Positions 697 through 15,422 of a DNA stretch of 18,561 nt are shown piece after piece. The stretch spans positions 1 to 18,561 of the forward strand of contig JAFQKO010000058.1 of the NCBI GenBank assembly GCA_017396865.1, given 5' to 3'. Below the pieces are notes generated by a model that saw only the letters and a list, made by a program, of their open reading frames with translations, was not told where the DNA came from and ran no database searches. Made by a program: the position numbers and the translations under genes. Within the stretch, counting starts at the first letter, position 1; each line of letters begins with the position of its first letter. Source of the stretch: Clostridia bacterium (GTDB lineage Bacteria; Bacillota_A; Clostridia; Oscillospirales; QAKW01).

Positions 697-1761
697 GTGA
701 ACGATATTTTTGAAGAGTACTTGCGTGAAAAGGAACCGCAGAAGAAGGAGAAGGGGTATGCGTGGCATACGGCAATCGGTCTTCAAGCGGTTGACGGACT
801 AAACACCAGTGAATATTTAATCGAAACCGCAAAAAAGAATATCGATGGTGATATCACCTTTGAAGAAGCCGATGCTTTGATTCACAGTTATTATAAAGAT
901 AACATTGCGCATACCGAAACAGACAGGACCGAAGAGGCCGACAAGGTTTCGGTTCGTATCGCGCAGTTGTTATCCGAGAAGTCTTTCGTCTTTTCTCCGG
1001 CGCAGTATTGCTCCATTCATTCACAGTTGTTTAAGGGCGTTTATAAACACGCAGGTAAGATCAGAGATTATAACATCACCAAAAACGAATGGGTGCTTGA
1101 TGGCGATACCGTTATGTATGGCGGTGCCTTGGATCTTAAAGCAACATTAGAGTATGATTTTTCGGTCGAAAAAGAGTTTTCTTATAAAAATCTTTCTATG
1201 GACGAAATCATAACGCATTTGGCGGTGTTTGTATCTCGCCTTTGGCAAATTCATATTTTTTCCGAGGGGAATACGAGGGCAACGGCGGTTTTCTTTATTA
1301 AGTATCTTCGTACGTTGGGCTTTGATGTAACAAATGATATTTTTGCCGAAAATGCTTGGTATTTCAGAAATGCACTTGTCAGAGCAAACTACACCAATCT
1401 TAAAAAGGGTGTTCACGAAACAACGGAGTATTTGGAACTGTTTTTAAGGAATCTGTTGCTTGGTGAAAGAAATCCGCTTAAAAATCGAAATATGCACATT
1501 AGCGGCTCTTTGTCTTCTCCAAAGTGCCAAATCGAAAATGGAAATGGCACTTTGGATGTCACTTTGGACGAAATGCGGGTTTTAAATCTGCTTAAAAAAG
1601 ATGGGAAACTAACCCAGAAGAAAATCGGCGAACTGATTGGAAAGTCTGACAGAACTGTTAAACGTATTACTGCTTCGCTTGAAGAAAAGAAATATATTGA
1701 ACGCGTAAACGGGAAACGCTTTGGCTATTGGATGGTGAAAGCAGAACCAATTAGTGACTAA
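697..1761 (+). CDS. fic: Fic-family protein with C-terminal winged helix-turn-helix
   Basis: A 354-residue protein. Fic enzymes transfer AMP (or a related group) from a nucleotide to a hydroxyl side chain of a target protein. The core motif is at residues 186-194 and reads HIFSEGNTR. The catalytic His186, Phe188 and Gly191-Asn192 are present, but the usual Pro after His is Ile and the usual second Gly is Thr. Residues about 120-145 form the expected flap. Residues about 22-66 resemble the VbhA-type inhibitory helix bundle fused to many Fic proteins, with D-G at 33-34 where the inhibitory motif has E-G. Residues about 288-347 form a winged HTH, suggesting DNA binding. The start is GTG with AGGTGAG (687-693) only a few bases upstream. 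The gene is AT-richer than its neighbours, which hints at horizontal transfer. No separate antitoxin gene is seen. Confidence 0.9.
   Translation: MNDIFEEYLREKEPQKKEKGYAWHTAIGLQAVDGLNTSEYLIETAKKNIDGDITFEEADALIHSYYKDNIAHTETDRTEEADKVSVRIAQLLSEKSFVFSPAQYCSIHSQLFKGVYKHAGKIRDYNITKNEWVLDGDTVMYGGALDLKATLEYDFSVEKEFSYKNLSMDEIITHLAVFVSRLWQIHIFSEGNTRATAVFFIKYLRTLGFDVTNDIFAENAWYFRNALVRANYTNLKKGVHETTEYLELFLRNLLLGERNPLKNRNMHISGSLSSPKCQIENGNGTLDVTLDEMRVLNLLKKDGKLTQKKIGELIGKSDRTVKRITASLEEKKYIERVNGKRFGYWMVKAEPISD
1518..1556. repeat. 12-bp perfect inverted repeat inside the fic gene
   Basis: TCCAAAGTGCCA (1518-1529) and its exact reverse complement TGGCACTTTGGA (1545-1556) are separated by 15 bases. They lie in the stretch encoding the linker between the Fic domain and the winged HTH. 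Confidence 0.8.
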
Positions 1762-1787
1762 TCAGCGAACTGACCCCTGATTGGTCA
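1755..1787. repeat. 11-bp hairpin over the fic stop codon
   Basis: TGACTAATCAG (1755-1765) pairs with CTGATTGGTCA (1777-1787), ten Watson-Crick pairs and one G-T. The arm covers the last fic codons and its TAA. There is no T-tract after it, so it is not a clear intrinsic terminator. Confidence 0.6.
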
Positions 1788-1811
1788 ATTCGCCCCCCGA
1801 TCTAAAGAAAA

Positions 1812-1880
1812 AGAGACATTGCTGAAAGGGCGGGTCGAAGTTAAAAACAACTCAACTTGTCGCCAGCAGACAATGTCTCT
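1812..1880 (-). terminator. Terminator of the leftward RNA
   Basis: On the minus strand AGAGACATTG (1880-1871) pairs perfectly with CAATGTCTCT (1821-1812), followed by TTTTCTTT. The loop is long (about 49 nt) and contains weaker inner pairing (an AAGTT/AACTT stem), so it is also the last domain of the RNA. No T-tract exists on the plus strand. Confidence 0.6.
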
Positions 1881-1926
1881 AACTGATAGCGCGGTGTCGG
1901 CGCATGAGACCTGCAGATCTCCAACG

Positions 1927-2088
1927 CAATACGTCCGAAACGAGGCACCTTGTTATCTGTAAGAGATACCGCCCACCGAATTAACGATGTGGCGCGCCCC
2001 GTAGGTTACGCGCTGAAAAACGGTATCTCTATATAAACCTATCCACCCCGGCAAATGATCGGGCCTTTGCCAATACGTCCGAAACGAG
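1927..2088 (-). repeat. Two identical 18-nt modules within the candidate RNA
   Basis: CAATACGTCCGAAACGAG (plus strand) is exact at 1927-1944 and 2071-2088. The flanking bases differ on both sides, so the identity is confined to the 18-nt module. Confidence 0.9.
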
Positions 2089-2110
2089 TAGCGGTACAGT
2101 TTTCATTTAT

Positions 2111-2138
2111 AGTATATCAAAAATTTACAAAATGTCAA
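2111..2138 (-). promoter_or_regulatory. Strong sigma-A promoter, leftward RNA
   Basis: Minus strand: a perfect TTGACA (2138-2133), a 16-base spacer, then TATACT (2116-2111). A TACTAT at 18-base spacing is an overlapping alternative. The predicted start is near 2104. Confidence 0.8.
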
Positions 2139-2169
2139 CCCTGCCGATCGGAACCGAAGCACGTTTCGC

Positions 2170-2198
2170 TTGACACATTGCAAAAAATCTGCTATATT
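2170..2198 (+). promoter_or_regulatory. Strong sigma-A promoter, rightward small RNA
   Basis: A perfect TTGACA (2170-2175), a 17-base spacer and TATATT (2193-2198). The predicted start is near 2205. It is back to back with the leftward promoter: the two -35 boxes are 31 bases apart. Confidence 0.8.
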
Positions 2199-2204
2199 AT
2201 TCTT

Positions 2205-2318
2205 GATAGCAGAGCGAGAGTTTTGGGCAACGCTGTTTTCGGTAGTCCCTTGCTTAGAGACCTCTGCTATTTCTCATTACGCAAAAAATGCCGAGTGCAA
2301 AGCACTCGGCGTTTTTTT
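2205..2318 (+). ncRNA. Candidate small RNA, about 115 nt, unrecognised
   Basis: The unit runs from its own promoter to an intrinsic terminator with no plausible reading frame. The predicted 5' end starts a 9-bp stem, ATAGCAGAG (2206-2214) with CTCTGCTAT (2262-2270), which closes a domain of about 65 nt with a possible inner GGG/CCC and CTG-TTTT-CGG hairpin. A single-stranded, A-rich linker (about 2271-2289) leads to the terminator hairpin. The gene beyond it is on the opposite strand, so this is not a leader for a downstream gene. It is not a tRNA: there is no TTCGAATC-like T-arm. A base-pairing regulatory RNA is one option, but nothing in the sequence names a target. Confidence 0.6.
2283..2318. 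terminator. Bidirectional terminator shared by the small RNA and the kdg operon
   Basis: GCCGAGTGC (2290-2298), loop AAA, GCACTCGGC (2302-2310), then seven T on the plus strand (2312-2318). A run of six A upstream (2283-2288) gives the T-tract for the minus strand, ending the kdgK message. Confidence 0.9.
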
Positions 2319-2327
2319 AATCGTAAT

Positions 2328-3350
2328 TTATCGTTGGACGCGGCCGGAGCCGTCGCCACCGGCGAGCTTTTCAACCTCGGAAACGGAAACGCGGTTGTAG
2401 TCGCCCTCGATGGTGTGCTTCAAGGCGGAGGCCGCCACCGCAAAGTTGATGGCGCTCTGAGTATCCTTGCCGGTCAGCAGGGCATAGATCAGGCCTGCGC
2501 CGAAGGAATCGCCGCCGCCGACGCGGTCTACGATGTGCAGATGATAGGTCTTGGAGAAGCAGTAGTTCTCGCCGTCGTAGAGCATACCTGCCCAGTCGTT
2601 GTCGTTGGCGGAGATGGAGGAGCGCAGGGTGATGGCTACCTTTTCAAAGCCAAACTTATCGGCCAACTGCTTGGCAACCGATTTATAACCCTCGTGGTTG
2701 AGCTTGCCGCCGTAGATGTCGGTGCCCTCGGCCTCGATGCCGAAAACGTCCTTGGCATCCTCCTCATTGGAGATGCAAACGTCTACGTATTTGCAAAGCT
2801 CGGTCATGGCGGCTCTTGCCTCCTCGCGGGACCAAAGCTTGCCGCGGTAGTTGAGATCGCAGGAGATCTTCACACCCTTTGCCTTGGCGGCAATACAGGC
2901 CTGCTTGCAGATCTCCACCAGCTCGCCGCCCAAGGCGGGGGTGATGCCGGTGAAATGGAACCAATCGGCGCCTTCAAAGACGGTGTCCCAATCGAAATCG
3001 GCGGGCTTGGCCATCTGGATGGCGGAATAGGCGCGGTCATAGATGCAGACCGAGCCGCGCTGGGAAGCGCCCTTTTCTAAATAGTAGATGCCGACACGCT
3101 CGCCGCCGCGTACGATGTTGGAGGTATCCACACCGAAATAGCGCAGGGAGTTGACTGCCGCCTGGCCGATGGCGTGGGCGGGCAGCTTGGTGACGTAGCT
3201 GCTCTCCAGGCCGAAGTTGGCAAGGGAGACGGCCACGTTGGCCTCGCCGCCGCCGAAGGTGGCCTGCATCTGGTCGTTTTGGAAGAAACGGTAGTAGCCG
3301 TTGGGTGCAAGGCGGAGCATCAGCTCGCCGAAGGTGATAACTTTAGCCAT
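2328..3350 (-). CDS. kdgK: 2-dehydro-3-deoxygluconate kinase (PfkB family)
   Basis: A 340-residue cytoplasmic sugar kinase that phosphorylates KDG with ATP to 2-keto-3-deoxy-6-phosphogluconate, the substrate of the aldolase encoded just upstream. It carries the PfkB sugar-site motif GGGEANVAVSLANFG at 33-47 and the KdgK-like DLNYRGKLW at 165-173. The ATP/catalytic motif is DRVGGGDSFGAG at 275-286, with the catalytic base Asp281. Length is normal for KDG kinases. The ATG overlaps the end of kdgA by 8 bases (ATGGCTAA), and its ribosome site GGAGG (3360-3364) lies inside kdgA, so the two are translationally coupled. Other PfkB kinases (fructokinase, 5-dehydrogluconokinase) look similar, but the KDPG aldolase partner favours KDG. 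Confidence 0.92.
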   Translation of the reverse strand: MAKVITFGELMLRLAPNGYYRFFQNDQMQATFGGGEANVAVSLANFGLESSYVTKLPAHAIGQAAVNSLRYFGVDTSNIVRGGERVGIYYLEKGASQRGSVCIYDRAYSAIQMAKPADFDWDTVFEGADWFHFTGITPALGGELVEICKQACIAAKAKGVKISCDLNYRGKLWSREEARAAMTELCKYVDVCISNEEDAKDVFGIEAEGTDIYGGKLNHEGYKSVAKQLADKFGFEKVAITLRSSISANDNDWAGMLYDGENYCFSKTYHLHIVDRVGGGDSFGAGLIYALLTGKDTQSAINFAVAASALKHTIEGDYNRVSVSEVEKLAGGDGSGRVQR

Positions 3351-9625: not shown

Positions 9626-10996
9626 ATGGAGAAGACCATGCGTGAGGGCTTGGAGGAACGGATCAACCTTTGCTCCTCTCCCTCGGAACTGAAAATAACC
9701 GATATTCGGGTGGCTCAAATTAACGGTGCACCCAAGCATTGCCCCTTAATTAAAATTTATACCAATCAGGGCCTCGTTGGCTACGGTGAGGTGCGGGACG
9801 CCTCCAGCGCCACCTATGCGCTGATGCTCAAAAGCCGCCTGATCGGTGAGAATCCTTGTAACGTGGATAAGCTCTTCCGCCGTATTAAGCAGTTCGGCGG
9901 CGATTCCCGCCAGGGCGGCGGTGTTTCCGGCTTGGAGATCGCCCTTTGGGATCTGGCAGGTAAAGCCTGGGGCGTTCCCCTTTGGCAGATGCTGGGCGGT
10001 AAGTTCCGCGATGAGGTGCGGATGTACTGCGATACCGACGTAGAAGGTAAGCATACCGGCACCGATATGGGTAATGCCCTCAAAAAGCGGCTGGAGCAGG
10101 GCTTCACCTTCCTGAAGATGGATCTCGGCATCGAGCATCTGCTGGACGAGCCCGGCTGCCTCTGCGCGCCCAATGGCTTTTTGGAGGATATCAAAAAGTA
10201 TTCCATGAAGGCGATTATGCATCAAAGCGGCTCCGTTGACCGTGATATGATGCTGGGCAAGAACTATGAGGTGTTCACCATCCCCCACCATGCCACCAAT
10301 ATCCAGATCACCGAAAAGGGCTTGGATTGGCTGGAAAACTACGTCAAAGAGATCCGCGACGTCATCGGCTACGAGGTGCCGCTGGCCATCGACCATCTCG
10401 GTCATATCGGGGTCGGCAGCGTCATCCGCCTTGCCAAGCGGCTGGAAAAATATAATATTGCATGGCTGGAGGATATTGCGCCCTGGCATATGACCGATCA
10501 TTTCGTCAAGGTTTCGCAGAATACCACCATTCCTATCTGCACCGGTGAGGATATCTATCTGGCTGAGCGGTTCCGCCCGCTGATGGAAAAGGGCGGCGTT
10601 TCGGTCGTTCATCCCGATATGCTCACCGTCGGCGGTGCGCTGGAGATGAAGAAGCTGGGCGATCTCTGCGAGCAGTACGGTGTTGCCATGGCCATCCATA
10701 TGGCCGAAAGCCCCATCGCCTGCATGGCGGCCATCCATGCCGCCGCAGCGGTGCAGAACGTCATCGCCGTGGAGTTCCATTCCTACGACGTACCCTGGTG
10801 GGCGGATATCGTCAACGGCTTACCTAAGCCCCTGATGAAGGATGGCTTTATCAAGGTGCCCGACGCTCCCGGCCTCGGCATCGAGAGCCTCAACGACGAG
10901 GTGATCGCCGCCCATATTCACGAGAAGTATCCCGGTCTTTGGGAGCCGACTACGCAATGGGACAACGAATGGTCCAACGACCGTACTTGGAGCTAA
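9626..10996 (+). CDS. Enolase-superfamily (mandelate racemase/RspA-like) sugar-acid dehydratase
   Basis: About 456 residues, cytoplasmic. Enolase-superfamily dehydratases remove water from acid sugars (mannonate, gluconate, galactonate and others) to give 2-keto-3-deoxy acids. An N-terminal alpha+beta capping domain covers about 23-140, then a TIM barrel. Likely Mg2+ ligands are Asp256 (AIDHLGHIG), Glu282 (WLEDIAPW) and Glu308 (CTGEDIY); Lys164 (FLKMDLG) and His358 (AIHMAES) are candidate acid/base residues. The exact substrate cannot be assigned. The open frame extends upstream to 9287, but that part runs through the promoter and leader, so I take the ATG at 9626. ATG 9638, with GGAG (9628-9631) 6 bases upstream, is at least as likely. 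It is the first gene of the operon; a repeat element separates it from the SDR gene. Confidence 0.85.
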   Translation: MEKTMREGLEERINLCSSPSELKITDIRVAQINGAPKHCPLIKIYTNQGLVGYGEVRDASSATYALMLKSRLIGENPCNVDKLFRRIKQFGGDSRQGGGVSGLEIALWDLAGKAWGVPLWQMLGGKFRDEVRMYCDTDVEGKHTGTDMGNALKKRLEQGFTFLKMDLGIEHLLDEPGCLCAPNGFLEDIKKYSMKAIMHQSGSVDRDMMLGKNYEVFTIPHHATNIQITEKGLDWLENYVKEIRDVIGYEVPLAIDHLGHIGVGSVIRLAKRLEKYNIAWLEDIAPWHMTDHFVKVSQNTTIPICTGEDIYLAERFRPLMEKGGVSVVHPDMLTVGGALEMKKLGDLCEQYGVAMAIHMAESPIACMAAIHAAAAVQNVIAVEFHSYDVPWWADIVNGLPKPLMKDGFIKVPDAPGLGIESLNDEVIAAHIHEKYPGLWEPTTQWDNEWSNDRTWS

Positions 10997-11008
10997 ATCG
11001 GCGTAAAA

Positions 11009-11150
11009 TCGGCGCATTTTCCTGCCGATTGGATAGGGTCGGCGCATTTTCCGCCTTTCCCGCCTTGACGTATCGACATACGCCTGCGTCGGGAGAAGCC
11101 GAAAACTGCATCCGATTTTCCTGCCGATTGGATAGGGTCGGCGCATTTTC
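11009..11150. repeat. Intergenic direct-repeat element
   Basis: A 36-bp sequence is repeated exactly at 11016-11051 and 11115-11150, and the phrase TCGGCGCATTTTC occurs three times. Between the copies is a palindromic segment (CGTAT-CGAC-ATACG within GACG...CGTC, about 11068-11093). The element lies between the dehydratase and SDR genes, resembles a REP/MITE-like dispersed repeat, and shows no gene. Confidence 0.8.
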
Positions 11151-11194
11151 TTGCCAATTGAAGGCTTGTTAGTCATAAAATAGAGGAATAAAAA

Positions 11195-11923: not shown

Positions 11924-12828
11924 GATTTAATTGCAAGGAAGAGATCATCGCGCTGACCCCCGAATGGAAGGGCGAGCGCCTGCCCGACGGCCGCCCCAAG
12001 GTGGAGGAAAAATACTTAAAGGCACTGCGCACCCTGACCCTTGAGGAGGTCTGGAAGCCGATCTTTGTGAAGGGCTATGAGAGCCAGTTTGAGGGTCGGC
12101 TGCATACACTGCACGACGACGGCCGCAAGCTGATCGGCCGCGCGGTCACCGCCACCTATTGCCCCTATCGCCCCGATCTGGATGCGGTCACCAAGGAGGT
12201 CGGCCGCAGCGAGGGCAGAACCGGCACCTATAATCAATGGGTGATCGATAACCTGATGGAATACGACGTGCCCGTTATCGATATGTACGATAAGATCTAT
12301 AAGGGCACCTTCCTCGGCGGCAACCTGACCACCGCCTTGAAGAACAAGACCCAAAATGAAAACGGCGGTGCCGTTATCTGGGGCGGGATCCGTGATACCG
12401 AGCAGATGAAAAAGGTGGAGGATACGCAGGTTTATTACCGCGGCATCGATCCCACCCCCATCCGCGACTTTATCATGACCGCCTATAATACGCCGACACG
12501 GATCGGCAACGCCATCTGCCTGCCCGGCGACGTGGTATTCGGTGCGGGCGGCGGCGTGCTGTTCATCCCTGCTCATTTGGTGGCCGAGGTGGTGGGCGGT
12601 GCGGCTAAAACGCAGGTCAAGGATCTGTTTGGCTTCGAGATGATCAGCCTGAATAAGTTTACCACCGCTCAGATCGATAAAAATACCTGGACGAAGGAAA
12701 TGCTGGATCTGCTGATGGAGTTCATTGCAACCGACGACCGCGCGGCAGAATACCGCGATCTGGATTGGACCGAGGAATATGACCTTGCCATCAACGGTGA
12801 TCCCAACGATACGCAGTCTGCGCTGTAA
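11920..12828 (+). CDS. RraA-like family protein (aldolase/lyase fold)
   Basis: 302 residues. The RraA fold is shown by FLGGNL (131-136) followed about 20 residues later by GGIRDT (155-160), whose Arg158-Asp159 pair binds the oxoacid and metal in HMG/CHA aldolases. PGDVVFGAGGGVLFIP follows at 202-217. The protein is longer than classic RraA (about 160 residues), with about 65 extra residues at each end. The D-x-D-G usually found before G-V in the last motif is replaced by G-A-G-G-G. It may be an aldolase or decarboxylase acting on a keto-acid made by the dehydratase and SDR, or a divergent family with another reaction. The start overlaps the SDR stop (ATGA). Confidence 0.82.
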   Translation: MRFNCKEEIIALTPEWKGERLPDGRPKVEEKYLKALRTLTLEEVWKPIFVKGYESQFEGRLHTLHDDGRKLIGRAVTATYCPYRPDLDAVTKEVGRSEGRTGTYNQWVIDNLMEYDVPVIDMYDKIYKGTFLGGNLTTALKNKTQNENGGAVIWGGIRDTEQMKKVEDTQVYYRGIDPTPIRDFIMTAYNTPTRIGNAICLPGDVVFGAGGGVLFIPAHLVAEVVGGAAKTQVKDLFGFEMISLNKFTTAQIDKNTWTKEMLDLLMEFIATDDRAAEYRDLDWTEEYDLAINGDPNDTQSAL

Positions 12829-12841
12829 GGAGAAAAAAGCA

Positions 12842-14125
12842 ATGGTTGATATTCAGAAAATGCGCGAGATGCTTAACCGCAACCGTGCGGAGGTTGAAGC
12901 CCGCATCGAGCGGGATATCGAGCAAAACCGCAAGGGCGATTTTGAATTGACCGCCCCTGCAGGGGCTACGGTAGAGATCTGCCAGCTCGACCATGATTTC
13001 ACCCTCGGCGGCAACCTCTTTATGCTGGATCAGCTTGAAACGGCAGAAAAGAACGAAAAATATAAGCGGCATTTTGCAAACTGTTTCAATACGGCCACCA
13101 TCGGCTTTTATTGGGATACCTTAGAGCCGGAGGAGGGCAAGCCCCGCTATGCGGCGGATAGCCCCTTTATCTATCGTCGCCCGCCCATCGACCCCTGCGT
13201 GGAGTTCTGCGAGCGAAACGGAATTACCCCCAAGGCTCATTGCCTCAACTACGATCATTTCGTGCCCGAATGGGTGAAGGGTCGTTCCGTTCCCGAGGTC
13301 AAGGAGGCGCTGATCAAGCGCTTTCAATCCCTCTCGGAGCGGTATGCCGACCGCATTCCCTGCTGGGAGGTCTTTAACGAGCTGTTGATCCAAAACGGGT
13401 CTACGCCCTTTTACGACGCCGATGATATCATGAGCTGGTCCTTTGAGCAGGCAGTGCGGTATTTCCCGCACAATACGCTGATGATGAATGAATCCAACTA
13501 TCCCATCTTCGCGAATAAGCATCTGCGGCAGAATGTGGCGAATTGCCGCAATCCGTATTTTATGCTCTGCGAAAAGGCGCTGGCAGAGGGCTGCCGTGTG
13601 GATGCCATCGGCATGCAGTTCCATTTCTTCGTCGGCGAGGAGGTGGCGGTCGACGGCGCAAAGATGTTCTACGACCTGAAGCATCATCTGGCGGTATTGG
13701 ATCAGATGGCCAAGCTGGGCAAGCCCCTGCAGATCACCGAGATCACCTTCTCCGCCTATGAGGATACCGCCGAGGCCTATGCTTTTCAGGCCGAGGTACT
13801 GCGTACCTTCTATCGCCTTTGGTTCTCCCATCCCGCCATGGAGGGCGCCATCTATTGGAATCTGCCCGACGGTTATGCCTTCAACGCCGAGCCGGGTGAT
13901 TTCTCCGGCGGTGAGAATAAATACCGCGGCGGTCTGCTGGATTTCAATCTGGATCCCAAGCCCGCCTATACCGCCCTTTATGATTTGTTCCATAAGGAAT
14001 ACCATACCGAAGCGACCCTCACCGCCGATGAAAACGGCAAGGTGCAGTTCCGTGGCTTTTACGGAAAATATCGCGTGAAGATCAACGGCGAGGAACGCAT
14101 CGTTACGTTTAAGAGAGGAAAGTAA
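12842..14125 (+). CDS. GH10 endo-1,4-beta-xylanase-like enzyme, copy 1, cytoplasmic
   Basis: 427 residues. GH10 enzymes hydrolyse beta-1,4-xylan chains with retention. The acid/base Glu180 (WEVFNE) and nucleophile Glu300 (QITE) are in place, as are His133 (KAHCLNYD) and His261 (QFHF). The barrel spans about 75-385. An N-terminal beta-rich segment (about 30-70) precedes it, and a C-terminal beta domain of about 40 residues (388-427) follows. There is no signal peptide, so it should act inside the cell on imported oligosaccharides. I chose the ATG at 12842 because AAGGAG (12827-12832) lies 9 bases upstream; the frame is open to 12725, but that part lies within the RraA-like gene. Copy 2 follows after 1 base. 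Confidence 0.9.
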   Translation: MVDIQKMREMLNRNRAEVEARIERDIEQNRKGDFELTAPAGATVEICQLDHDFTLGGNLFMLDQLETAEKNEKYKRHFANCFNTATIGFYWDTLEPEEGKPRYAADSPFIYRRPPIDPCVEFCERNGITPKAHCLNYDHFVPEWVKGRSVPEVKEALIKRFQSLSERYADRIPCWEVFNELLIQNGSTPFYDADDIMSWSFEQAVRYFPHNTLMMNESNYPIFANKHLRQNVANCRNPYFMLCEKALAEGCRVDAIGMQFHFFVGEEVAVDGAKMFYDLKHHLAVLDQMAKLGKPLQITEITFSAYEDTAEAYAFQAEVLRTFYRLWFSHPAMEGAIYWNLPDGYAFNAEPGDFSGGENKYRGGLLDFNLDPKPAYTALYDLFHKEYHTEATLTADENGKVQFRGFYGKYRVKINGEERIVTFKRGK

Positions 14126-14126
14126 A

Positions 14127-15422
14127 ATGGAAAGAGTTGACCGATTTCGTGAATTTCTCTATCGCGACCGCGAGGAGATTGAGGCCCGTATTGAGCGGGA
14201 TATCGAGCAATACCGTAAAAATGATTTTACTTTAAACGTGCCTGCGGGTACGCAGGTGGAGGTCTTTCAGCTCGACCATGAATTTCAGCACGGCTCCAAC
14301 ATGCTTCAGCTCGATCAGTTTGAAACGGAGGAGAAGAACCGCCGCTATCGGGAACGCTTTAAAGAGGGCTTTAATCTGGCGACCATCCCGTTCTATTGGG
14401 ATGCGCTGGAGCCGGAGCAGGGCAAGCCTCGCTTCGCTGCCGATAGTCCCTTTATCTATCGCCGCCCGCCCATCGATCCTTGCCTTGAATACTGTGAGCA
14501 AAACGGCATTACGCCCAAGGCACACTGCCTCAACTACGATCGATTTTCTCCCGCATGGGTCAAGGGCCGCCCCGTATCGGAGGTCAAAAAGCTGCTGATC
14601 AAGCGGTTTGAGGAGCTTTCCGCGCGGTATGCCGACCGCATCCCCTGCTGGGAGGTATTCAACGAGCTGCTCTGTAAAAACGGCACCACCCCCTTCTACG
14701 ATGCCGATGATATGCCGCTTTGGTCTTTTAAGCAAGCGGAACGGCTGTTCCCTGCCAATGAGCTGATGACCAACGAATATACCGTCAATATTTTCTGCGA
14801 TAAAAAGGGCACGCAGCACGGCGCCAGCCGCCGCAATCCCTATTATATGCTCTGCGAGGGGCTGATCGGGGAGGGCGCTCGGGTGGATGCCATCGGCATG
14901 CAGTTCCATTTCTTTACCGATGCGGAAAATGCCGTTAAATATGCCAAGGGCTTATTTGATCTCAAGCATCATTTCGAGGTGCTGGATCGGTTTGCCAAGC
15001 TGGGCAAGCCGCTGCAGATCACCGAGGTGACTTTCCCCGCCTACGGCGGCACGCAGGAGGAATTTGAATTTCAGGCCGAGCTGGTGCGGATGTTCTATCG
15101 CGCTTGGTTCTCTCATCCTGCCATGGAGGGCGCAATCTATTGGAATTTGGCAGACGGCTATGCTTGGGGTGCCGAGCCGGGTGATTTCACCGCAGGTGAG
15201 AACCGCTACTACGGCGGTCTACTGGACTTTGATCTTAATCCCAAGCCCGCCTATGCCGCCATGTATGATCTGTTCCATAAGGAATATCATACCGAAGCAA
15301 CCCTCACCGCCGATGAAAACGGCAAGGTACGGTTCCGCGGCTTCTACGGCACCTATCGCATAAAGATCGGGGATGAGGAGAAGATCATCACCTTCAAGCG
15401 CAGCGGCGCAACTGAAATTTAA
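14127..15422 (+). CDS. GH10 endo-1,4-beta-xylanase-like enzyme, copy 2, cytoplasmic
   Basis: 431 residues, a tandem duplicate of the preceding gene. The two proteins align with hardly a gap, so the catalytic residues have the same numbers: Glu180 (WEVFNE) and Glu300 (QITE). The differences cluster in the region 186-236, which may line substrate subsites: copy 2 has NEYTVNIFCDKKGTQHGASR where copy 1 has NESNYPIFANKHLRQNVANC. The two may therefore prefer different decorations or chain lengths. Again there is no signal peptide, and the same C-terminal beta domain is present. The start is ATG, with AGAGGA (14113-14118) 8 bases upstream. It is the last gene of the operon and ends before a strong terminator. 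Confidence 0.9.
   Translation: MERVDRFREFLYRDREEIEARIERDIEQYRKNDFTLNVPAGTQVEVFQLDHEFQHGSNMLQLDQFETEEKNRRYRERFKEGFNLATIPFYWDALEPEQGKPRFAADSPFIYRRPPIDPCLEYCEQNGITPKAHCLNYDRFSPAWVKGRPVSEVKKLLIKRFEELSARYADRIPCWEVFNELLCKNGTTPFYDADDMPLWSFKQAERLFPANELMTNEYTVNIFCDKKGTQHGASRRNPYYMLCEGLIGEGARVDAIGMQFHFFTDAENAVKYAKGLFDLKHHFEVLDRFAKLGKPLQITEVTFPAYGGTQEEFEFQAELVRMFYRAWFSHPAMEGAIYWNLADGYAWGAEPGDFTAGENRYYGGLLDFDLNPKPAYAAMYDLFHKEYHTEATLTADENGKVRFRGFYGTYRIKIGDEEKIITFKRSGATEI

Follow-up and report, generated by a model that had tools for sequence, protein, structure and literature searches.

Orphan relatives of RNA genes carried antisense to phage nuclease domains: a candidate array of RNA antidotes in a Clostridia genome

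What does a bacterium encode in a stretch of DNA that has a near-consensus promoter, a duplicated sequence and several strong hairpins, and no gene? Contig JAFQKO010000058.1 of the Clostridia bacterium assembly GCA_017396865.1 (18,561 nucleotides (nt), analyzed whole and hereafter called the window) raises this question in the spacer between a Fic protein gene, which ends at 1761 and converges on the region, and a kinase gene that bounds it, ending at 2328. A first-pass annotation, made from the sequence alone, had proposed an unrecognised minus-strand RNA here. We propose, with a probability of roughly one half, that the RNA genes in the window are orphans of a class that elsewhere runs antisense to the 3′ end of sequences encoding BECR-type nuclease domains, and that these RNAs act as antidotes. 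The class is apparently undescribed: no account of antisense RNAs in polyvalent-protein or MuF nuclease genes was found among the titles and abstract starts listed from a part of PMC, a scope outside which lie preprints, supplements and most subscription papers, where one may be published. Numbers with L and G denote our loci and genomes.

The minus-strand promoter (2111–2138) comprises TTGACA (2138–2133), a 16-nt spacer and TATACT (2116–2111), with 11 of 12 consensus bases, and leads into a predicted RNA of ~300 nt (1803–2104), whose ends are placed by the promoter and the T tail. An 18-mer occurs exactly twice on this strand, at 2071–2088 and 1927–1944, 144 nt apart; within the window a 17-nt core with up to three mismatches is confined to those two sites (expected 0.03; at least two matches in 1 of 200 shuffles). 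Perfect 10-base-pair (bp) inverted repeats at 2021–2030/1962–1971 and 1871–1880/1812–1821 enclose 49 nt each. The fold of 2104–1806 reaches −103.7 kcal/mol (z score −3.05; 0 of 200 shuffles as low), and all three plus-strand frames opposite the RNA are interrupted by stops. The promoter, the exact repeat, the middle stem and the terminal hairpin with its T-rich tail were thus all as first annotated, and the region is an RNA gene by every sequence sign. Read from its 5′ end, the array would consist of unit 1 (2044–2090), with the first 18-mer as core and a stem, P3, at 2071–2066/2055–2050; hairpin B (1962–2030), closed by the 10-bp stem 2030–2021/1971–1962; unit 2 (1896–1946), with the second 18-mer as core; and the terminator-like hairpin C with its T-rich tail (1803–1880, stem 1880–1871/1821–1812), that is, two units of what we call type 1 below, a further hairpin and a terminator hairpin, four units on one putative transcript. 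Hairpin B has no relative in the loci of the present analysis, and the 3′ hairpin is missing from a terminator scan that allows loops of 3–8 nt only.

The annotation had matched the RNA to no known family, and this held up. Skipping-rope and drum motifs in Rfam are phage hairpin RNAs with terminators; no Rfam 15 model, these two included, reached gathering level in the window or the loci scanned. Relaxing the window search to E-values (E) up to 10 gave near the RNA only a yeast snoRNA model (E 2.4), and a search relaxed to E 5 on four loci gave no model matching the elements. The window contains no tRNA or tmRNA, and the whole minus-strand RNA had no BLASTN match in phage and plasmid records. 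The exact 18-mer was absent from viral contigs and present in two genome contigs (L001, and L002 within a protein-coding stretch), which we took as chance. One sub-pattern of hairpin C occurred in two viral contigs (L048, L049), the other in none. KDG kinase proved a misleading guide to kinship (the family and the order of G047 hold four genomes each), and the comparison family was chosen via the window's DUF5685 protein, which is 70% identical to that of G093 (next of 391 genomes, 44%). A search of the 12 genomes of this family with the RNA's DNA sequence produced three matches, spread over two genomes. In G397 (L030), hairpin C was matched at 74 of 85 alignment columns (87%), antisense within a polyvalent-protein open reading frame (ORF); one G-C pair of its stem is A-U in L030, and a TTGACA-17-TATACT promoter directly adjoins the hairpin. 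In G402 (L031), the promoter and CTCGTTTCGGACGT were matched (E 0.0015). The third match (L032) covers 32 nt at the promoter. The window's minus-strand promoter is similar to the antisense promoter in L031 and, by eye, to that in L030. Both elements lie antisense inside frames of more than 1000 amino acids (aa), and the polyvalent-protein domain LPD3 passes the Pfam cut-off in L031 but stays below it in L030. The L030 region itself gave no match by tblastn, blastn or contig search.

In polyvalent-protein genes the antisense promoter hides in a peptide pattern, [S/T/N]I-x6-V[N/K]. On the opposite strand the S-I codons read TATAnT and the V-N codons TTGAC, with 17 nt between them, and the form [S/N/I]I-x6-VN occurs in 8 of 34 protein homologues of L030. 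We counted such promoters in 20 loci (18 regions from 17 LPD3 genomes among 381, plus the places in G397 and G402), comprising 123 stop-free frames of at least 300 aa each and 80,497 aa in total. Antisense TTGACn-N-TATAnT was found 24 times at a spacer of 17, and no other spacing in the range 14–20 had more than one occurrence; two of the 24 are in loci that had been picked because they carry the element (L090, L091). In sense, there were two occurrences each at 17 and 20. Across 30 protein-preserving synonymous shuffles, the number of antisense sites at spacer 17 averaged 1.03 and never exceeded 4, against the 24 observed, so that the DNA is constrained and not the peptide alone. All but one of the sites (23/24) share one reading phase. 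A stem of at least 8 bp with a T-rich tail follows 18/24 sites vs 598/8003 random antisense positions in the same frames, and a stem of at least 10 bp follows 12/24 vs 96/8003; this controlled count is our stem evidence, and earlier stems picked by threshold were not used. The antisense elements look like self-contained small RNA genes.

Elsewhere the usual gene of this class (TTGACA-17-TATAnT, hairpin, T tail) is found where a polyvalent, MuF or portal protein of a phage or mobile element has a BECR-type nuclease domain, and it runs antisense to the 3′ end of the sequence encoding that domain. PBECR is described, in the parts of Iyer et al. (PMC5512222) consulted, as a predicted RNase of phage and mobile-element effectors, with an inactive PBECR as the C-terminal domain of Mu gp30. 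Among loci chosen for LPD3, 19 of 23 upstream segments were scanned (one overlapping another and three of 21–43 aa were left out) and gave LPD3 15 times (13 above cut-off), MuF_C once, PBECR3 once and no domain twice, a count biased by that choice. Two further sets were gathered by RNA sequence, not by neighbor domain. The type-1 set, defined by the −10 box plus the 13-mer TCGTTTCGGACGT, comprised 25 viral contigs together with L091 and L164; five of the contigs (L144, L146, L153, L154, L160) have no P3 structure, and we regarded them as chance matches. Eighteen type-1 elements were scanned for neighbors, leaving out L072 at 4526, the copies in L074, L084, L165 and L166 (28–80 aa of open frame) and the near-duplicates L145, L147, L158 and L162. 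The ten embedded elements adjoin PBECR3 in eight cases (all above cut-off), MuF_C in one and no domain in one, and the eight intergenic ones adjoin PBECR3 in five (L140, L151 and L156 above cut-off; L149 at 29.4 vs 30; L157 at 17.4). The type-2 set, TTGGGCAATTGGAGCCC in 40 viral contigs with 29 distinct neighbors (18 scanned), gave MuF_C in 15, InPase in one (L106), no domain in two (L097, L125) and PBECR3 in none. With PBECR3 beside 13/18 type-1 and MuF_C beside 15/18 type-2 elements, RNA type follows nuclease family.

Placement varies among the intergenic copies. Three of them (L149, L151, L157) lie directly behind the stop codon of a MuF-like gene, and in L149 and L157 a virion-morphogenesis gene comes next; in L142 the RNA is antisense just beyond the 3′ end of a portal fused to anti-CBASS Acb1 (944–3085); no neighbor domain was found at L155, nor at L159 except for a PHP protein on its opposite flank. 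PADLOC signals on five nuclease-side segments were absent or weak. The gp30 and gp31 genes of phage Mu overlap, and the stretch read there showed no core; five named phage regions with MuF-like genes contained no exact core. The gap after the MuF-like gene of Rhodovulum phage RS1 (L177, 2460–2527) has by eye a variant core, CGTCTCGGACGTT, and the corresponding gap in RcapMu (L173, 2172–2265) has by eye a hairpin; either may hold an RNA. Two type-2 cores stand in tandem, 69 nt apart, in L123 (3377–3462). The type-2 element of L110 (1060–1280) has matches in 432/5426 E. coli genomes and 13 phage records, six of them Stx phages, and 11 of the 12 E. coli rows among the matches listed are annotated as LPD38 domain proteins.

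Does the window RNA belong to type 1? A covariance model (R1) built from six viral elements, the window not among them, and run with filters off, scored unit 1 (2090–2044) at 49.4 bits (E 7.3e-12) and unit 2 (1946–1896) at 23.8 bits (E 3.4e-5; next hit 11.7 bits), where ~26 bits of type-1 scores are due to selection because the 13-mer was the search key, so that the remainder for unit 1 is independent and little is left for unit 2. Unit 1 combines the core with a P3 that has the AGG/CA internal loop and six of six standard pairs, of which one has both bases changed relative to L152. In an alignment of 31 distinct rows (A4), pairing holds for 89.3% of P3 cells and covariation is 0.530 vs at most 0.115 when slid; this alignment had been fitted to the structure and contains the rows used to train the model, which favors the result. 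The compensatory changes by which the first-pass annotation would have had the stems judged are thus present in P3 and, as the G-C to A-U exchange, in hairpin C.

The usual partner is missing. Neither the ORF list, nor Pfam on eight window proteins, nor the frames opposite the RNA revealed a PBECR3 or other BECR-type nuclease gene in the window, and the RNA is lacking the type-1 position antisense to or just past a PBECR3 domain. We call it an orphan because no PBECR3 gene is there, vs 13/18 tested copies elsewhere. On the opposite strand between the Fic and kinase genes lie scraps of polyvalent-protein linkers in three frames (RDIAERAG and NLSPADNVSN, QYVRNE twice, and NTSETSSGTVFIYSISK). Similar situations occur elsewhere. 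The model found nine matches in eight of 371 class genomes, two of which (L171, L172) look like chance in coding sequence, and four matches at E up to 0.1 in family genomes, the weakest being L181. Locus L169 has the RNA between convergent genes without a long opposing frame, L165 (1501–2564) an orphan type-1 RNA ~385 nt from a tandem array of 66-nt period, CRISPR-like in appearance, and L180 (in G397) TTGACA-17-TATACT and a core opposite a 129-aa frame. The spacer at L166 (1307–2381) holds remnants of several polyvalent-protein linkers in short ORFs and is perhaps a second chromosomal RNA array.

These scraps give the strongest rival for the window, a functionless relic: a polyvalent-protein gene with antisense RNA genes would have inserted and decayed, leaving the RNA features as recent leftovers. 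The stop-ridden linker scraps in three frames, the resemblance of hairpin C to an embedded copy (87% identity) and the similar remnants in L165, L166, L169 and L180 are what it expects. However, the coding frames are broken but the promoter, the two 18-mers and every stem have stayed whole, the changes in P3 and in the hairpin C stem are paired, and the two window RNAs (the second, on the plus strand, is described below) diverge from opposite strands, an arrangement not expected from a single decayed gene. We consider the relic fairly unlikely. An alignment to a decayed gene was what the annotation had named as telling against an RNA; the coding vestiges that it overlooked bear this out on the opposite strand, while the RNA's own promoter, cores and stems look intact.

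How might the antidotes work? In its usual place, each RNA has by its sequence its own sigma-70-type promoter, a hairpin of ~55–90 nt with a family-specific core, and a T tail, all of them on the strand opposite the nuclease. By analogy with type III antitoxin RNAs, the most likely role of the core is to bind its nuclease and hold it in check in the producing cell. The nuclease is presumably meant to act after delivery into another cell, and the element would therefore need restraint in the cell that produces it; an RNA that stayed behind in the producer while the injected protein left would be a natural safety catch. With the nuclease frame gone and the promoter, cores and stems kept, the host probably expresses the window RNAs as antidotes to incoming nucleases; the bacterium may keep antidotes without the poisons. 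The annotation's suggestion of a binding site used twice survives as a probably protein-binding core in two copies; the family in phages and mobile elements and the antisense nuclease setting were not foreseen.

Type III toxin-antitoxin systems (ToxIN, CptIN, TenpIN) are alike in having a structured RNA thought to restrain an RNase, paired RNA and toxin families, links to phages and repeated units. In the portions of the literature consulted, their RNA repeats are placed upstream of the toxin gene in one operon (PMC5086642). By contrast, the RNA here has its own promoter and runs antisense to the 3′ end of the nuclease gene instead of preceding it as tandem repeats, and it is partnered by a domain (PBECR, MuF_C or LPD3) within a large protein that is probably injected. 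Because the layout differs we do not file it under type III, although it probably works like one. In the C. difficile prophage system AbiF-RCd22, as far as its source was covered, a non-coding RNA with two copies of a hairpin motif neutralizes the toxic AbiF in trans by direct binding (PMC12373285). The duplicated core in the window recalls these two motifs, but in RCd22 they precede abiF, and the protein is of the Abi_2/AbiF family, not of the BECR fold. The protein side of our class is that of polyvalent proteins with PBECR and MuF-C domains, predicted RNases in effectors with Mu gp30 as example; the main text of that work (PMC5512222) uses neither 'antisense' nor 'noncoding'. The likely mechanism is thus of a known RNA-antitoxin kind, while the gene arrangement and the partner families would be new.

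Several observations weigh against the antidote reading, besides the selected bits and the fitted alignment given above. The window promoter has a spacer of 16, not 17. Neither PBECR3 nor MuF_C was found in 4/18 type-1 and 3/18 type-2 neighbors, and independent events are fewer than the pairing counts because some contigs are related (e.g. L139, L141). Foldseek gave no significant PDB match for PBECR3. Bare motifs were not enriched: a class-wide 14-mer had 11 matches vs 17 for its reversed control in 391 genomes, and a family 12-mer had four vs 14 in 12 family genomes (L034 and L035 being coding sequence). Five of the eleven 14-mer matches are at the start of genes that we take to encode GAPDH, and with the control commoner we regard the bare 14-mer as uninformative. 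Finally, what the sequence itself shows is how the genes are built, that their promoter is constrained as DNA, that RNA type goes with nuclease family, that the core covaries and that the window copies are orphans; transcription, binding, relief of toxicity and immunity are what we infer.

Two other roles for the RNA compete with restraint of the protein. As a cis-antisense regulator, it would pair with the nuclease mRNA or block its transcription and bind no protein. Its strong promoter, exactly opposite the coding strand in polyvalent-protein genes, suits this role, but the copies that lie between genes, directly after the stop codon, in MuF phages (L149, L151, L157), the family-specific folded core with covariation and the orphan copies without an mRNA do not, and we hold it to be improbable. 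To about the same degree we doubt that the nuclease domain takes the RNA into the new cell as a guide, cofactor or decoy. The specific pairing of RNA and domain would fit, as would the RNA-binding role suggested for the inactive Mu gp30 domain in the parts of Iyer et al. (PMC5512222) consulted, but orphan copies have no protein to travel with. Least probable by far is a selfish palindromic insertion element: short hairpins inside ORFs and in spacers and the two tandem copies in L123 recall such elements, but the fixed place after a nuclease-like domain, the family-specific core and a promoter kept at synonymous sites speak against it. Rickettsia RPE elements are the familiar example of that kind.

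Should the RNAs be antidotes, they would explain how phages and mobile elements produce large nuclease proteins without harm to the producer, and would give a handle on the roles of PBECR, MuF_C and LPD3 domains. Written backwards inside or just behind protein-coding genes, such RNA genes are easily missed. Orphan copies, if true antidotes, would be a new form of host immunity. More tentatively, and as a possibility that we would not bet on, chromosomal arrays of stripped-off RNA antidotes, each core suited to a nuclease family injected by phages and conjugative elements, might form an RNA-based innate immunity, the window being one such array with four units in a single transcript and an opposite-strand RNA beside a Fic defense candidate.

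That second RNA was missed by the first-pass annotation. On the plus strand, a promoter at 2170–2198 (TTGACA, 17 nt, TATATT) precedes a predicted hairpin RNA (2205–2271) similar to the antisense element of L073 at 4735. Their local score is 56–58, whereas 5000 mononucleotide shuffles reached 33 and the top segment outside L073 scored 42 (41,070 segments scanned in the loci analyzed). Pfam found no domain adjoining the L073 element. The plus-strand core pattern occurred in six contigs without promoter or hairpin context and was taken as chance. A hairpin at 2290–2310 with T-runs on both sides (2290–2318 on the plus strand; the terminator scan lists the minus strand, and the plus T-run is visible) is the probable terminator of both the plus-strand RNA and the kinase gene.

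Of the neighboring genes, the Fic protein (697–1761, plus strand) has a winged helix-turn-helix and matches the phage-defense candidate model PDC-S72 in PADLOC (E 6.7e-163); any connection with the RNAs would be conjectural. Farther along the window, the short motif RRPYPIGRK is repeated among small spacer ORFs (10820–11176), suggesting a short repeated element, and the adjacent ORFs 12725–14125 and 14127–15422 are clearly alike, a tandem duplication spanning 12725–15422.
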